Origin: Verrucomicrobiia bacterium
GTDB lineage: Bacteria; Verrucomicrobiota; Verrucomicrobiia; Opitutales; Cerasicoccaceae
Assembly: GCA_030432235.1 (NCBI GenBank)
Contig: JAUIHT010000005.1
Coordinates: 62,001 to 126,000 of the forward strand
Length of the DNA: 64,000 nt
Direction: 5' to 3'
Of the stretch, positions 1,722 to 62,209 are shown piece after piece; the stretch's first letter is position 1; each line of letters starts with the position of its first letter. The notes below the pieces were generated by a model, which was given only the letters and a program-made list of their open reading frames with translations, had not been told where the DNA came from and did not search any database. The position numbers were made by a program, and so were the translations under genes.

Positions 1722-4700
1722 ATGTCCGAAATTTCAAAGTCCTACGAGCCCGCCGAGGTCGAGAACCAGTGGTACCAGCGCTGGCTGGAGGCCGGTTGCT
1801 TCCGTGGCGAGGCCGACCCATCCAAGGAGCCGTTCTGCATCACCATTCCGCCGCCCAATGTGACGGGCGTGCTGCACATGGGGCACCTCCTGAACAACAC
1901 CATTCAGGACCTCTACACCCGCCGCGCGCGCCAGCAGGGCAAGGCCGCCGTCTGGGTGCCCGGCACCGACCACGCCGGCATCGCTACCCAGAGCCGCGTC
2001 GAGCGCAAGCTCCGCGAGCAGGGCCAGACCCGTCATGACCTGGGCCGCGAGAAGTTCGTCGAAGTCGCCAGTGAATGGCGTGACGAGCACCGCAACATCA
2101 TCCTCGACCAATTAAAAAAGCTCGGAGCCTCCTGCGACTGGGACCGCACCGTCCACACCCTCGATCCGCAGTACAGCCGCGGCGTCCTGACCGCCTTCGT
2201 CGAGCTGTTCCACAAGGGTAATATCTATCGGGGCAAGCGTATGGTCAACTGGTGCCCGGTCAGCCTGACCGCCCTCAGCAACGAGGAGGTCATCATGAAG
2301 CCGCAGTCGGGCAAGCTCTACAAGATGCGCTACGAAATCGCGGAGCGCCCGGGCGAGTTCGTCGAGATTTCCACCACGCGCCCCGAGACCCTGATGGGTG
2401 ACACCGGCGTAGCCATCCACCCCGAGGATGATCGCTACAAGCACCTGCATGGCCTGCATGCCGTTCGCCCCTTCCCGCGGGCTGAAATTCCTTTCGTTCC
2501 CGACGAGCACGTCGACCGCGAGTTCGGCACGGGTGTCCTCAAGGTTACCCCGGCGCACGACATGGCGGACTTCGACATCGGCAACCGTCACAACCTCGAG
2601 GTCATCGACGTCCTCACGCCCGACGGAAAAATCAACTGCCCCGAGTGCCCCGAGCTCCACGGCAAGGATCGCTTCGTGGCTCGTAAGATTGCCGCCAAGA
2701 TGCTCGACGAGCTGGGCCTGCTGGTCAAGGAGGAGCCCTACGAGAACAATGTCGGCTTCTCCGAACGCGCCGATGTGCCTATCGAGCCGCGCCTGTCCGA
2801 CCAGTGGTGGCTACGCTACCCGAAGGTCGAGGAGGCCAAGGAGGTTGTCCGCAACGGCACCATTAAATTTTACCCGGAACGTTGGTCCAAGACTTACCTG
2901 CACTGGCTGGAAAATATCCAGGACTGGTGCATCAGCCGCCAGCTCTGGTGGGGCCACCGCATCCCCGTCTGGTACAAAAAGGGCATCGACCGTGCCAGCC
3001 TGACCGAAGAAGATTTAAATCCAGAAAATATACAGCTTTCCGCAGATGCGAAAATTCACGTATCTGTTGATGGTCCACCTGATCCAGAAAATTGGGAACA
3101 GGAAGAAGACGTTCTTGATACATGGGCGAGTTCCTGGCTGTGGCCGTTCGGCGTATTTGGTTGGCCTGGCTATTTGAAGCTGGACGATTTTAAGCTAAAT
3201 GATCGCGTAGTTTTCCTTGAAGAACCTACAAATCATGAAACGGATATTAAGAAGGGCGACGAAGGCATTGTTGTTGGCCACGCTGCACCGCATGTGATCG
3301 TAGAAGCTGGTAAGCAAGGTTGGTATCGTGTTCTTCCAAGAGAACTAAAAAATCTTAGCAGGATCCATCATGACTTAGTGGCAGAAACCCAAGCACATGA
3401 ACTGGCATTCTGGTATCCTACATCGCTGCTCGCGACCGGTTTTGACATCATCTTCTTCTGGGTGGCCCGTATGATTATGGCGGGGCTGGAGTTCATGGGG
3501 GACGTGCCCTTCAAGGCCGTTTACTTCAACGGACTCATCCGCGACTCGCAGGGCCGCAAGATGTCGAAGTCCCTCGGCAACTCGCCCGATCCGCTGGAGT
3601 TGATCGCGAAGTTCGGCGCCGACGGACTCCGCCTGGGCCTGCTCCTCATCGCCCCCAAGGGTCAGGACATCCTCTTCAGCGAAGATCGCATAAAAGAGGG
3701 TAGGAATTTCTGCAACAAGCTGTGGAACGCATCCAGATTCCGACAGATGTCGGAACCTGGAAGTCAAAAGTCAAAAGTCAAAAGTCAAGAGGGTCTTATT
3801 GAGAGCCTGGATGCTGGTCAGTTCGACGTCGATGATCATGCCATTCTGGGCAAGTTGTGTCAGACGCTCGATACGGTTCACAAGGGACTCGAAACCTACG
3901 AGCTGCACGCTGCCGTACAGGCGCTTTACTCCTTCTTCTGGTCGGACTTCTGCGACTGGTACGTGGAGGTCTCCAAGGCCAAGCTGGATTCCGAAAAGAC
4001 CCGTGCGAACTGCCTCGCGATTCAGGATATCTGCCTGCGTCAGCTTCTGTTGATGCTGCACCCGATCATGCCGTTCATCACGGAAGAGCTCTGGCATAGC
4101 CTCGGCTTTGCTGAGGAGCCGAAAGACGAAAGTCTAAAGTCTAAAGCAGGTTTGGATTCGATTCAGAATCATAATCCTGGGACGGGTGTTGAGTTGCGCG
4201 AGAAGCTCGCCGGGGCGGGCGTTACTTTGGATGACAAAGCAGTGGCCGCCACCAACGCCCTGCGGGACTTCGTCACCCAGGCACGTGCCCTCAAGGCCCA
4301 GTACAACCTCGCGGCCAAACGCGACGTGACCTTTAATCTGGAGGCGGATGCCGAGCAGAAAGCGCTCCTTGAGGGTAATCTTGATAAGCTTCTCAAGCTC
4401 GTTGGCGCGGAGGCTATCCAGCCCGATGGTGCCTTGGAGAATGCCCCGGCGGTCGTCACGCCGCTGGGCACGCTTTACCTGGACCTCGCCGGGTCCGTGG
4501 ACACCGAGGCGGAGAAGGCGCGTCTGACCAAGGAGCTGGAGCAGCTTGAAAAGGCGATCAAGGGTGCGCAGGCCAAACTCGGCAACGAGAGCTTTACCGG
4601 CAAGGCCCCGGCCAACGTCGTCGAAGGCGTCCGCCAAACTCTGGCGACGAACCTCGAAAAGCAGGCCGAGACGCAGAAGCTTTTAGCGAGTCTCGAATAG
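1722..4700 (+). CDS. valS: Valine--tRNA ligase with inserted small domain
   Basis: Class Ia synthetase that charges tRNA-Val with valine; 992 residues. HMGH (residues 52-55) is the HIGH motif and KMSKS lies at 613-617. The editing domain, anticodon-binding domain and C-terminal coiled coil (about 925-992) are all present. Three oddities are seen. First, between GWP (480-482) and the conserved FWYPTSLLATGFD block (from 563) there are about 80 residues where the family normally has about ten; the extra sequence (DRVVFLEEP... KKGDEGIVVGH... GWYRVLPREL) looks like a small SH3/DUF4926-type beta domain. Second, the DNA from about 3004 to 3420 is clearly AT-richer than the rest of the gene. Third, two heptamer arrays are translated in frame (3761-3788 and 4124-4151). 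No stop interrupts the frame, so the enzyme is probably functional. Confidence 0.97.
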   Translation: MSEISKSYEPAEVENQWYQRWLEAGCFRGEADPSKEPFCITIPPPNVTGVLHMGHLLNNTIQDLYTRRARQQGKAAVWVPGTDHAGIATQSRVERKLREQGQTRHDLGREKFVEVASEWRDEHRNIILDQLKKLGASCDWDRTVHTLDPQYSRGVLTAFVELFHKGNIYRGKRMVNWCPVSLTALSNEEVIMKPQSGKLYKMRYEIAERPGEFVEISTTRPETLMGDTGVAIHPEDDRYKHLHGLHAVRPFPRAEIPFVPDEHVDREFGTGVLKVTPAHDMADFDIGNRHNLEVIDVLTPDGKINCPECPELHGKDRFVARKIAAKMLDELGLLVKEEPYENNVGFSERADVPIEPRLSDQWWLRYPKVEEAKEVVRNGTIKFYPERWSKTYLHWLENIQDWCISRQLWWGHRIPVWYKKGIDRASLTEEDLNPENIQLSADAKIHVSVDGPPDPENWEQEEDVLDTWASSWLWPFGVFGWPGYLKLDDFKLNDRVVFLEEPTNHETDIKKGDEGIVVGHAAPHVIVEAGKQGWYRVLPRELKNLSRIHHDLVAETQAHELAFWYPTSLLATGFDIIFFWVARMIMAGLEFMGDVPFKAVYFNGLIRDSQGRKMSKSLGNSPDPLELIAKFGADGLRLGLLLIAPKGQDILFSEDRIKEGRNFCNKLWNASRFRQMSEPGSQKSKVKSQEGLIESLDAGQFDVDDHAILGKLCQTLDTVHKGLETYELHAAVQALYSFFWSDFCDWYVEVSKAKLDSEKTRANCLAIQDICLRQLLLMLHPIMPFITEELWHSLGFAEEPKDESLKSKAGLDSIQNHNPGTGVELREKLAGAGVTLDDKAVAATNALRDFVTQARALKAQYNLAAKRDVTFNLEADAEQKALLEGNLDKLLKLVGAEAIQPDGALENAPAVVTPLGTLYLDLAGSVDTEAEKARLTKELEQLEKAIKGAQAKLGNESFTGKAPANVVEGVRQTLATNLEKQAETQKLLASLE
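3761..3788 (+). repeat. Four AAGTCAA heptamers inside valS
   Basis: Four perfect copies of AAGTCAA, translated as KSQKSKVKSQ-like residues in the linker between the catalytic and anticodon-binding domains. A perfect 8-bp inverted repeat (TTCCGACA-GA-TGTCGGAA) lies just upstream at 3738-3755. The 28-nt length alone would shift the frame, so flanking bases must compensate. Confidence 0.85.
4124..4151 (+). repeat. AGTCTAA-type heptamers inside valS
   Basis: Units AGACGAA, AGTCTAA, AGTCTAA and AGCAGGT follow each other with a 7-nt period and are translated in frame in the anticodon-binding region of valS. The following bases (4152-4180) also contain a short GATTC/GAATC inverted pair. Confidence 0.65.
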
Positions 4701-58405: not shown

Positions 58406-60501
58406 TACCCGAAGTAGCCAAAGCCGCCGAGGCCGTCGAGGCCATCATCAACAAAGAGGGCATGTGCCTGACCATGGGTGGCGAGCCTACCTTCATCCCG
58501 GAGCGTCCTCAGGGAGCGGAGTGGAATAACGCCGCCATGGGCCCGCAAAAGCTCGGCTACGCGCGCCGCCTGGCCGGACGTTTCCTGCAGATGCTGTATC
58601 CCGGCGGACTGGTCATGCAGATATTTGGCAAGCAGTATCCCAACGAGCCTCTGCCGCGCTGGGTCATGCTTAGCCTCGCTCGCAAGGACGGCGAAGTCCT
58701 TTGGTCCGAGCCTAAACGTCTGCTGCTCGACGACGCCGAGGGCCGCAACAAGCCTGCCCGGGCGAAAGCCGTCATGGCCGCGATTGCCGAGGAGCTGGGT
58801 TTTCCCGAACACGTGTTGCCCTGCCGCGAAAAGGGATTCAAAGGCGCGCGCGGCTATGTGTTGCCGTTGGACTTCGAGGACGGCGAATGGATTAGCGAGG
58901 CCTGGCCGTGGACTGCGCGCAAGGCCGTACCGCTCTTCGCCGGGGACAGCCCGGTAGGCCTGCGACTGCCTCTTGGCGACCTGCCGGAAAAAGCCATGCG
59001 CCGCGCCTTGACGGTCGAGGTGACCAAGGGAGTGCTCAAGATATTTATCCCACCGCTCACCTGGGAGGGTTTTAATCTACTGATCGCGGTGTGTCGGAAT
59101 GTGGCCAAGCGTTTGCGCCTGCGCGACATCGTTTTCTGCGGTTATCGGCCCTACGAGACCGGCGGGCAAATGGCCGACATCGGTTGTGCTGCCGACCCCG
59201 GCGTGCTGGAGATCAATTTGCCGCCCACAGCCAATTGGGACGACTACAAGAAACTCATCGAGCAGGTTTCCGCCGCGGCGGGTGCCGAGGGGTTGCAGAC
59301 GCTCAAGCTGCACCTCAACGGCGCCGTGCACGGCAGCGGTGGTGGCAGTCACATGATTTTTGGCGGCCCCAGCCTGGAGGAAAATCCGTTCCTGAAACGA
59401 CCGGTCATCATCGCGCGCATGATTCGCTACTGGCAGCATCATCCGGCGCTGGCGTACTTTTTCACCGGACAATATGTCGGTCCCGGTTCGCAGGCTCCGC
59501 GCGCCGACGAGACCCTGACCGCCAAGCTCTACGAACTGGAAACGGCCTGCATCGGCGTCGAGGCCGTCGAGGGCTGGACGGACAAGGCTTACCTGGATCG
59601 TCTTTTCCGCAACCTCATGACGGACAGCGCAGGCAATACCCACCGTGCCGAAATCTGCCTCGACAAGTTCCAGAACCTGGGCGCGCCCAACGGCGAGCTG
59701 GGGCTGGTCGAGCTGCGCGCCTTCGAAACCGTGCCCGAGGCAAGTCAGCAGGCCTTGGTTGTGCTCTTCATCCGCGCCATCATTGCACGTCTGATGCAGG
59801 AATCTTTCACCGAGCCGCTGGTGCGTTTTGGAGCGAAACGGAACGACACCTACATGCTGCCGCACGGCCTCTGGCACGATCTGGAAAACATCTGCGCCGA
59901 TCTCAACGCCCATGGCATTCCGTTTCAACTCGACTGGCTGCGGCCCATCTTCGAGTTCCGTTTTCCGGTGCTGGGCACGATTGAGCTACCTAGTGGGACG
60001 GTCGTGCTACGGCAGGCCCTTGAGCCCTGGCCGCTCATGGCCGAGGTCGCTGACGCGGGCTTCACCTCGCGCGTGGTGGACAACTCCACCGACCGCGTCG
60101 AGTTGTCCGTCAGCGATCCCAAACTCCTCGACGACTTCGCTGTGACGGTGAACGGCTACGCGCTGGCTTTCCGTGAGCATGGCGATACATTCGCCGCCGG
60201 CATTCGCTACAAATGCGCCAACGGCTGGCCCGCGCTGCACCCGCACATCCCGAACCAGTCACCCATCCGCCTCGAATGCGTGGAAAAGACCACCGGGAAA
60301 TGTGTCGGCGGCGCCGATTATTACTACTGGAATCCCGAGGCAGCCGTCTACGACGGTGCGCCCGCCAATGTGGAGGAAGCGCTCAAGCGACGCAAAGCCC
60401 GCTGGAAGCCTTACACCCCGAGCGAGGAGAAGCGCACCCTTAAGAAACCCACGTACAGCGAGGAGAATTTCGATACCCTCGACCTGCGTCGCCATTTCTG
60501 A
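58402..60501 (+). CDS. DUF2126 protein, partner of the transglutaminase
   Basis: A 699-residue cytoplasmic protein belonging to DUF2126, usually the C-terminal two-thirds of proteins of about 1,100 residues that start with a transglutaminase domain. Conserved segments include LTMGGEPTFIPERPQGAEWN, YPGGLVMQIFGKQYPNEPLPRW, GAVHGSGGGSHMIFGGPS and RPVIIARMIRYWQHHPALAYFFTGQYVGPGSQAPR. The first part resembles glutamate-cysteine-ligase-like or ATP-grasp-type peptide-bond-forming folds, but its reaction is not established. GTG is used as the start codon; ATG starts further in would lose conserved residues. Confidence 0.85.
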   Translation: MIPEVAKAAEAVEAIINKEGMCLTMGGEPTFIPERPQGAEWNNAAMGPQKLGYARRLAGRFLQMLYPGGLVMQIFGKQYPNEPLPRWVMLSLARKDGEVLWSEPKRLLLDDAEGRNKPARAKAVMAAIAEELGFPEHVLPCREKGFKGARGYVLPLDFEDGEWISEAWPWTARKAVPLFAGDSPVGLRLPLGDLPEKAMRRALTVEVTKGVLKIFIPPLTWEGFNLLIAVCRNVAKRLRLRDIVFCGYRPYETGGQMADIGCAADPGVLEINLPPTANWDDYKKLIEQVSAAAGAEGLQTLKLHLNGAVHGSGGGSHMIFGGPSLEENPFLKRPVIIARMIRYWQHHPALAYFFTGQYVGPGSQAPRADETLTAKLYELETACIGVEAVEGWTDKAYLDRLFRNLMTDSAGNTHRAEICLDKFQNLGAPNGELGLVELRAFETVPEASQQALVVLFIRAIIARLMQESFTEPLVRFGAKRNDTYMLPHGLWHDLENICADLNAHGIPFQLDWLRPIFEFRFPVLGTIELPSGTVVLRQALEPWPLMAEVADAGFTSRVVDNSTDRVELSVSDPKLLDDFAVTVNGYALAFREHGDTFAAGIRYKCANGWPALHPHIPNQSPIRLECVEKTTGKCVGGADYYYWNPEAAVYDGAPANVEEALKRRKARWKPYTPSEEKRTLKKPTYSEENFDTLDLRRHF

Positions 60502-60509
60502 TTTTTTAT

Positions 60510-60572
60510 TCTCACTCAAAGGCGCTAAGCATTTCATAAATAGTCTTTGCGCTTTTGCGTCTTGGCGTGAGA
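60510..60572. repeat. Inverted short-period repeat before the binding-protein gene
   Basis: TCTCACTCAAAGGCGCTAAGC (60510-60530) is inverted and diverged at 60544-60572, which reads TCTTTGCGCTTTTGCGTCTT then GGCGTGAGA, a 7-8 nt periodic sequence. The right arm ends 11 bases before the ATG at 60584. Confidence 0.55.
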
Positions 60573-60583
60573 TACTTTTCATT

Positions 60584-62209
60584 ATGCGCACACTCATTGT
60601 TCGTTCAGGGATTCTTGCGTGGTGTGTTGTGCTTATTTTGACCGGCTGCGGTGAGCGTGTGACGCCGGTGGAAATCGCCAACGAGGAGCAAATCCTTCTC
60701 AAAGGCAATGGAGCGGAGGTCGCCACGCTCGACATGCACCTGGCCACGGGCGTGACCGAGTACAAGGTGCTGACCGCGCTCTTCGAAGGGCTCATGCGGC
60801 CCAACCCGAAGACTGTTGCTCCGGTGGAGCCCGCCGTGGCCGAACGCTACGAGATGAGCGAGGGCGGCACCCGCTACACGTTTTATCTGCGCGAAAACGC
60901 CCGGTGGTCCAACGGAGACCCCGTCACCGCTCACGACTTCGTCTTCGCGTATCAGCGTATCCTCTCACCCAAGCTGGCCGGCGAGTACGCTTACATGTTG
61001 TATCCCATGGTAAATGCCGAGGCTTACAACAAAGGCGAGATCACGGACTTTTCGAAAGTCGGAGTGAAGGCCCTCGATGACCGCACGCTGCAAATCGACC
61101 TGCAGTCGCCCACGCCGTACTTTCTCTCGCTACTCATCCACTACACCTGGTGGCCGGTGCATCCACCGACAATCCTTGCGCATGGGGACATCGACACGCG
61201 TGATTCCAAGTGGACGCGCCCCGGCAATATGGTCTCCAACGGACCCTTCACGCTTGAACGCTGGAGCATGAACGACGTCCTCGTGACCAGGAAAAACCCA
61301 CTCTACTGGGATGCCGACAACGTGAAGCTCAATGGCGTAAACTTCCTGCCCATCGACAACCTCAACACCGAGGAACGTGCCTTTCGCGCGGGGCAAATCC
61401 ACATCACCGAATCCATCCCGCTCTCGAAAATCGACAGCTACAAGGCCCGCAACGATCCCGCACTGAAAATCAATCCGTACCTCGGTATCTACTACTACCT
61501 GCTCAACACCAGTCACGCACCGTTGGACAAACCCAAGGTGCGCAAAGCGCTTTCACTGGCACTGGACCGCCAGATGATTTGCGATCAAATCCTGCGTGGT
61601 GGGCAGTCTCCGGCCTTCCACTTCACGCCGCCTGACACCGCTGGCTATACCACGGAGTTCAAGCTGACCGAGAACGTGGCCGAGGCTCGCAAGCTCCTGG
61701 CCGAGGCGGGATACCCGAACGGTAAAGGGTTTCCCACGCTGGAGATTCTCTACAACACCTCCGAGAGCCACAAGCTCATCGCCGAAGCCATCCAGCAGAT
61801 GTGGCGCAAAAATCTCGGCATCGACGTCGCACTCATCAATCAGGACTGGAAAGTTTACCTGCAGTCACGTCGCGAGGGCACTTTCGACATCGCCCGTGCC
61901 GCCTGGATTGGTGACTTCAACGACCCGGTCACTTTTCTCGAATTGATGCAGACGGACTCCGGCAACAACCATTCGCGTTGGGGCTCGGAGAAGTTCGACG
62001 CTTTGTTAGCCAAAGCTTCCAAAACGCAGGACCAGAAGGAGCGCTATGCCATCCTGCAACAGGCAGAGGCCCTCATGCTTGAAGAGCAGCCGGTCATCCC
62101 CATCTACTTCTACATGAGCGCCTACCTCGTCAATCCGGCGGTCAAGGGCTGGTATCCCAACATCATGGACGAGCATCCCTACTGGGCCGTCTGGCTGGAG
62201 GAGGATTAA
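60584..62209 (+). CDS. oppA: Oligopeptide ABC transporter substrate-binding lipoprotein
   Basis: About 541 residues. The lipobox LTGC ends at Cys22 of the signal peptide. The mature protein is an SBP_bac_5 family binding protein: LDMHLATGVTEYKVLTALFEGL, YTFYLRENARWSNGDPVTAHDFVF, VRKALSLALDRQMICDQIL and the closing WAV. It captures peptides or similar solutes in the periplasm. The OppBCDF permease and ATPase genes are not in the window. The stop overlaps that of the convergent deacetylase-like gene. Earlier in-frame starts would lie inside the DUF2126 gene. Confidence 0.92.
   Translation: MRTLIVRSGILAWCVVLILTGCGERVTPVEIANEEQILLKGNGAEVATLDMHLATGVTEYKVLTALFEGLMRPNPKTVAPVEPAVAERYEMSEGGTRYTFYLRENARWSNGDPVTAHDFVFAYQRILSPKLAGEYAYMLYPMVNAEAYNKGEITDFSKVGVKALDDRTLQIDLQSPTPYFLSLLIHYTWWPVHPPTILAHGDIDTRDSKWTRPGNMVSNGPFTLERWSMNDVLVTRKNPLYWDADNVKLNGVNFLPIDNLNTEERAFRAGQIHITESIPLSKIDSYKARNDPALKINPYLGIYYYLLNTSHAPLDKPKVRKALSLALDRQMICDQILRGGQSPAFHFTPPDTAGYTTEFKLTENVAEARKLLAEAGYPNGKGFPTLEILYNTSESHKLIAEAIQQMWRKNLGIDVALINQDWKVYLQSRREGTFDIARAAWIGDFNDPVTFLELMQTDSGNNHSRWGSEKFDALLAKASKTQDQKERYAILQQAEALMLEEQPVIPIYFYMSAYLVNPAVKGWYPNIMDEHPYWAVWLEED

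Follow-up and report, generated by a model that had tools for sequence, protein, structure and literature searches.

Results and discussion

The valS gene and its AT-rich tract

The stretch of DNA analyzed here (the window, 64,000 nucleotides, to which all positions refer) comes from contig JAUIHT010000005.1 of the Verrucomicrobiia bacterium assembly GCA_030432235.1 (family Cerasicoccaceae; 5.72 Mb, 95.9% complete; the source genome), and it contains valS, encoding valyl-tRNA synthetase (ValRS), in whose core lies a tract of mostly A/T-ending codons that includes a 73-residue insert. The site of that insert is hypervariable across the family, which is our main point and one that a single sequence could not have revealed. 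The source ValRS is a full-length member of its family (NF004349, 1045.3 bits, cut-off 704; TIGR00422, 905.8 bits, cut-off 612.1), with the HMGH and KMSKS motifs both readable in the translation, and it is the sole full-length valS match found in the source genome, six partial matches falling in the open reading frames (ORFs) of other class I synthetases.

The G+C content of third codon positions (GC3) is 0.89, 0.84, 0.82, and 0.82 in four bins covering residues 1-428, falls to 0.16 at residues 429-460 (31 codons) and 0.42 at 461-483 (19 codons), is 0.34 in the insert (74 codons), and rises again to 0.60 at residues 559-580 (20 codons) and 0.89 at 581-640 (56 codons). An earlier note on this DNA, made without database searches, had described an AT-rich segment at 3004-3420 encoding 70-80 extra residues between the GWP and FWYPTS blocks, and both observations hold: read codon by codon, the tract has the boundaries given in Table 1, with GC3 mostly 0.16-0.42 against 0.82-0.89 upstream, the dip takes in conserved ValRS sequence around the insert, and the insert (residues 484-556) compares with 4-14 residues in four short-loop members of the family. 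Among the 46 ORFs of the window, the lowest GC3 over 100 codons is that of valS (0.32, gene mean 0.72), and the runner-up, at 0.35, belongs to an ORF whose mean is 0.40. There are also two lesser dips within valS, to 0.38 near codon 673 and 0.44 near codon 793.

A hypervariable site in the catalytic domain

The family sample comprises 10 genomes, all with valS, including the source and the four species of a sister genus (G003, G005, G007, and G009). An AT-rich coding insert occupies the site in five of them, namely the source (73 residues) and all four sister-genus species (76 in G003, 62 in G005, 87 in G007, and 35 in G009), a dispersed-repeat insert of 41 residues occupies it in one (G004), and the remaining four have a short loop (10 residues in G001, 4 in G002, 14 in G006, and 4 in G008). 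All five AT-rich inserts lie at one site and in frame within a single open valS frame, and their pooled GC1/GC2/GC3 of 0.63/0.33/0.36 (362 codons) is coding-like. None of the 10 pairs that they form aligns better than shuffled sequences at P<0.05, locally or globally, and with the G004 insert added just one of 30 alignment tests passes (G007 with G004, global, p 0.028). The G004 insert is GC-rich and shows no coding pattern; it has 22 matches in its own genome, itself included, one of them in another loop of G004 valS.

Outside the site, the ValRS proteins of G005, G007, and G009 share 94.5-94.8% of their residues, and 78-80% of four-fold sites, with few codon differences as far as the insert. 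A resident insert could hardly have diverged so far in genes otherwise so close, which argues that the insert was replaced. The family thus presents a single fixed valS site with foreign-looking content that differs entirely between species, as if it had been repeatedly swapped. Four-fold-site identity among the same three species is 0.78-0.80 in valS and 0.54-0.73 in ileS, and this higher likeness may reflect gene flow at valS.

Whether the phenomenon is specific to this site was examined at the level of ORFs and with isoleucyl-tRNA synthetase (IleRS) as the one control enzyme. In a set of 909 non-overlapping ORFs of at least 250 residues, drawn from the window and 1.75 Mb of three relatives and taken as ORFs rather than checked genes, internal GC3 dips average 0.11 (SD 0.06), and ranks 1-4 are held by the four valS genes in the sample, those of G007 (0.49), G009 (0.46), the source (0.44), and G005 (0.43). 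Orthologous ORF pairs sharing at least 70% identity are few (16, 15, and 61 in three comparisons); valS was flagged in all three comparisons, with 30-column identity as low as 0.00-0.07, and three further pairs were flagged once each at 0.17-0.23. Across the 10 family genomes, IleRS varies by more than 3 residues at two sites and by more than 6 at none, and in the source genome its lowest 40-codon GC3 is 0.59 compared with 0.18 for ValRS. Low 40-codon values also occur where there is no insert and the gene mean is lower, as in G003 IleRS (0.38, mean 0.61) and G001 ValRS (0.34, mean 0.56).

Table 1. Features of the valS region in the source genome (window positions).
Feature	Position	Strand	Basis
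valS, valyl-tRNA synthetase, 992 aa	1722-4700	+	NF004349 and whole-genome match search
Probable foreign segment: AT-rich tract spanning codons about 429-567	3006-3422	+	Codon-by-codon GC3
Upstream part of tract: conserved ValRS core up to DVLDTWASSWLWPFGVFGWPG, mostly A/T-ending codons	3006-3170	+	
Extra residues NIQLSAD, aa 436-442 (7 aa), within upstream part of tract	3027-3047	+	Comparison with other family members
Hypervariable 73-aa insert (aa 484-556) with codon structure of coding type; no confident relative	3171-3389	+	
Downstream end of tract, aa 557-567 (QAHELAFWYPT)	3390-3422	+	
KMSKS motif, aa 613-617, intact 3' of insert	3558-3572	+	Translation
AAAAGTC heptamer repeat, in frame, in a further valS loop of variable length, outside tract	3766-3787	+	

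Origin of the segment

The earlier note proposed that a gene segment had been replaced by a foreign allele that already carried the insert. This proposal finds a strong parallel in G003, and for the source itself the support is compositional. Residues 421-480 of G003 are 0.70-0.72 identical to those of its three congeners, compared with 0.94-0.95 over residues 40-414 and 567-669, and G005 is 0.98 identical to G007 and to G009 within residues 421-480, with 0.98 and 0.99 in the rest compared. Because the identity of G003 drops at residues 421-480 and the congeners agree there, the segment was clearly replaced in G003, whose AT-rich tract starts at about source codon 420, some nine codons before that of the source, and ends with the insert.

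In the source, residues 421-480 are 0.72-0.79 identical to those of G003, G004, G005, G007, and G009, compared with 0.84-0.85 in the rest of the sequence compared, and 0.83 identical to those of G001, against 0.86 in the rest. Pairs that show no sign of replacement have the same deficit (G005 with G006, 0.75 versus 0.84; G001 with G008, 0.74 versus 0.84), so this stretch evolves faster anyway, and we discarded the protein divergence of the source as evidence of foreign origin. The layout of the source tract matches that of G003, and on its composition the tract is probably of foreign origin.

Position, fold, and relatives of the insert

Counted from the alignment, the insert lies between residues 471 and 474 of Thermus thermophilus ValRS (1gax), and thus between Trp456 and Ile491, which we take to line the valine pocket. 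A structure search with the source ValRS returned 1gax_A (Z 36.9, root mean square deviation 3.7, 780 residues aligned), which identifies the ValRS core and is uninformative on the insert. As a source for Trp456, PMC7955072 was set aside, the Trp456 given there being a residue of yeast IleRS.

The insert was said in the earlier note to resemble a small SH3/DUF4926-like fold, which is not established. Its best Pfam match is SH3_12 (E 0.075, 13.5 bits, cut-off 26.2), and DUF4926 (PF16277, gathering 29.1) gave no match at E values up to 10; an hhalign comparison with five DUF4926 proteins from related genomes returned P 0.0044 over 31 columns, with a probability of 7.9%, and the inserts of G005, G007, and G003 scored worse than that of the source. 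The G005 insert reaches E 0.02 and 14.7 bits against DUF4926, below the cut-off of 29.1, and those of G003 and G007 match neither a Pfam family nor the DUF4926 profile. These values give a weak hint, at the level of sequence profiles, of an SH3/DUF4926-like fold in the source insert. AlphaFold2 modeled the core of the source ValRS with a mean pLDDT (predicted local confidence) of 86.4, with residues 489-530 below 50, and a 93-residue piece with the insert, for which there were no related sequences to build on, with a mean of 35.6.

Searches for relatives of the source insert were similarly sparse in their yield. Collections of plasmids, phages, and viral contigs contained no match, 286 genomes of the class contained just two matches elsewhere, both weak (E 0.006 and 0.010), and the best hits in PHROGs and the Protein Data Bank were a PHROG of unassigned function (E 0.018) and a gp41 construct (E 0.059). 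The G005 insert matched nothing in plasmids or phages, and the G003 and G007 inserts matched nothing in phages; the G009 insert was scanned against PHROGs and Pfam only. No transposase, nuclease, or intein family matched the source insert in the Pfam and NCBIfam scans, no Y1_Tnp or REP_Tyr_transpos match was obtained with either the source ValRS or its insert, and the whole source ValRS, scanned against Pfam and NCBIfam at E values up to 1, matched no intein family. The DNA of the source tract has no second copy that we could find in its own genome, the assembly being 95.9% complete (next best match E 0.32, 26 bases), nor did we find there a template repeat, so that it resembles neither a dispersed in-frame repeat, as the G004 insert does, nor the target of a diversity-generating retroelement. 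The G007 insert, the one sister-genus insert searched for as DNA, occurs once in the 10 family genomes, as itself. As far as surface inspection goes, the literature on hypervariability of ValRS or other synthetases, or on synthetase insertions in Verrucomicrobiota, held nothing that appeared relevant.

ValRS outside the family

The spacing between DTWxSS and FYPT was measured in 96 distinct non-family ValRS sequences, where it is 15-43 residues; the six family members with long inserts have 53-105. One further sequence (L028) could not be measured, L322, a G004 locus, was excluded, and the lengths outside the family are skewed to short because the loci are mostly best matches. Scans matched 360 of 384 genomes of the class and 363 of 372 of the order, and in both scans the site-covering rows from outside the family, judged by eye among the matches listed, span at most 609 bases for a query of 558. 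Thirty genomes, mostly with split, weak, or missing matches, were searched again, of which 23 matched and 7 did not. In the 14 of these whose match lay in two pieces on a single contig, the break falls at query residues of about 28-61 or 123-130, outside the site loop (about 84-95). A scan of genome contigs with the family alignment gave no ValRS resembling the long-insert ones among the at least 80 loci listed, which served as outgroups. The earlier note had held that its reading would fail if the same insert were present in all Opitutae valS genes; in the sequences compared from the family and the class the insert is instead different or absent.

Proposed exchange of modules at a fixed site

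What we observe is a fixed site with AT-rich content, modules without detectable similarity to one another, a segment replaced in G003, and no such loop in IleRS, and these observations lead us to suggest that an essential synthetase carries a hypervariable, horizontally exchanged module, presumably with a function of its own; we put the chance that this explanation is correct as a whole at about even. The catalytic-domain loop of ValRS (source residues 483-559; T. thermophilus 471-474) would be an exchange site, within the family, for short AT-rich coding modules, each brought in with part of a foreign valS allele. The resident segment would be replaced by homologous recombination in the flanking conserved blocks, near WGHRIPVWY on the left and at FWYPT on the right, and for that reason the reading frame would be kept and the old module lost. 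Such recombination offers the simplest route and is consistent with G003, and the source tract may have arrived in the same way, as its composition suggests. That sister species hold unrelated modules would be explained by a module turnover faster than their divergence.

A more specific proposal is that selection drives the turnover, with the module altering how ValRS appears to some hostile factor, from a phage or a competitor, that is directed against it. Such selection would explain the rapid turnover, the lack of sharing, and the absence from IleRS, and a ValRS-modifying protein of phage T4 is reportedly a precedent for a ValRS-directed factor, but we consider the proposal rather improbable. 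We consider unlikely the fullest version, which casts this family's ValRS as a protein engaged in an arms race: its catalytic domain would hold an interchangeable recognition module, renewed by segmental recombination between species because some phage or competitor antagonist selects for novelty.

Several observations weigh against module exchange or its parts. At the protein level nothing marks the source segment as foreign except the faster evolution that this stretch shows generally; G003 and its congeners are 0.40-0.52 identical at third positions in two bins of the segment, yet are also just 0.48-0.58 identical in other bins; and the flanks of the site in G005, G007, and G009 are not AT-rich, so that flank and module are seen together in two of the five cases, and exchange in these three species was either limited to the insert or has had its trace in the flanks erased. 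AlphaFold2 predicts no ordered module, although without related sequences this says little, and we found neither a donor allele nor a relative of any module, in searches that covered different sets of collections for different inserts. The sample of 10 family genomes, no two of which are named as one species, addresses variation between species, and the ValRS-directed antagonist is a postulate of which the present data bear no sign.

The chief rival is passive tolerance, in which a surface loop accepts foreign DNA and the captured pieces are neutral and functionless. Other valS loops of the family also vary in length (source residues 33, 678, and 798), the dispersed-repeat sequence of G004 lies at two such sites, the repeat-bearing loops of source valS dip in GC3 too, and other ValRS proteins of the class have inserts at other loops, all of which fit such tolerance. 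It accounts less readily for a long, AT-rich, in-frame coding insert at one site in the source and in four of four sister-genus species, no two of them alike, or for the lack of such a loop in IleRS, even if coding composition was compared at this valS site only, and we regard it as a serious possibility that nonetheless falls short of even. We find it quite unlikely that selfish elements entering ValRS in frame left the inserts behind as remnants or brought them as cargo, as may be the case for inserts of the REP-associated transposase or DUF559 type. The G004 insert, with its many genomic matches, and the transposase-like and DUF559-containing ValRS genes described below are of that character, but those latter inserts lie at other ValRS positions, and neither the missing second copies of the source tract and the G007 insert nor the absence of any transposase, nuclease, or intein match to the source insert is what mobile elements would lead one to expect.

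Descent of all the inserts from one ancient, inherited SH3-like domain that has diverged past recognition would accommodate the subthreshold matches to SH3_12 and DUF4926, which are all weak. Against this stand the range of insert lengths (35-87 residues), the failure of the G003 and G007 inserts to match the profiles, and the likeness of the rest of the gene in G005, G007, and G009, which leaves hardly any room for complete divergence of a resident domain, and such descent seems very unlikely. An assembly or binning artifact is scarcely credible: these are public assemblies, most of them in tens of contigs, but five of five AT-rich inserts, from separate genomes, are in frame in one open valS frame.

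Comparison with known systems

Bacterial proteins can carry in-frame repeats, among them the rickettsial palindromic elements, of which a genome has many copies. The insert described here is similar in placing extra DNA in frame inside a conserved protein gene, but no second copy of the source tract was found, and it is the G004 insert that does fit that kind. Inserted or appended domains of aminoacyl-tRNA synthetases, such as the GNAT domain of some IleRS proteins and the leucine-specific domain of LeuRS, are likewise extra modules in class I synthetases; these are conserved within lineages, whereas the valS module differs between sister species. The HsdS subunits of restriction systems are specificity proteins that swap domains, and they share with valS the exchange of unrelated modules between conserved flanks, though HsdS is an accessory defense protein and ValRS a housekeeping enzyme with one full-length copy here. 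As the cores of aminoacyl-tRNA synthetases are highly conserved, replacement of content between sister species at one core site is unexpected, and the valS genes of this family offer a natural insertion series in a synthetase core for tests of folding and activity. Were selection to lie behind the turnover, it would point to an unrecognized agent that targets valyl-tRNA synthetase.

Other ValRS insertions and repeat-like sequences

The nearest comparison within the class is provided by the ValRS genes of G068 and G284, from two families, which contain in frame a stretch resembling a REP-associated tyrosine transposase (L194, about 754-1486, and L198, about 780-1490, respectively). It scores below the curated cut-off of 80 against NF047646 (E 3.8e-17 and 1.2e-17; 62.5 and 64.1 bits) and above the cut-off of 23 against Y1_Tnp (26.6 and 31.3 bits). 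This insert is like that of the source in being in frame in ValRS in the same bacterial class, but it occupies another loop, between WWGHRIP and DTWFSS, encodes a recognizable mobile-element protein, and has repeat copies around it, with two 64-nucleotide direct repeats, 83% alike, flanking the stretch in L194. A ValRS on the IMG/VR contig IMGVR_UViG_2894185313_000007 (L224, 1-3177) has a DUF559 domain in its core (residues 252-358, E 2.7e-35) and adjoins a gene of the integrase family. In three f14 genomes (L188 of G216, L187 of G293, and L189 of G348) the ValRS matches are split near VPFK, where the sequence of L188 reads GSSELRAKSSEQGSGTSGSQPSALSSQLDAAELRRR.

The ORF at 60173-62206 also dips internally in GC3, by 0.34 (0.40 compared with 0.74), and this dip may be partly a frame artifact because the start of this ORF overlaps the preceding one. 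The two lesser GC3 dips of source valS adjoin loops with AAAAGTC-type repeats, and heptamer-like in-frame repeats (AAAAGTC or TAAAGTC) occur in two variable-length loops, the one listed in Table 1 and another at 4128-4142. Low-complexity runs lie just 5' of the valS start, at about 1628-1715, and the stretch KTPSSKESSNEELCVSASLREN of the source LeuRS (L003/L007) gives the impression of being repeat-like as well.

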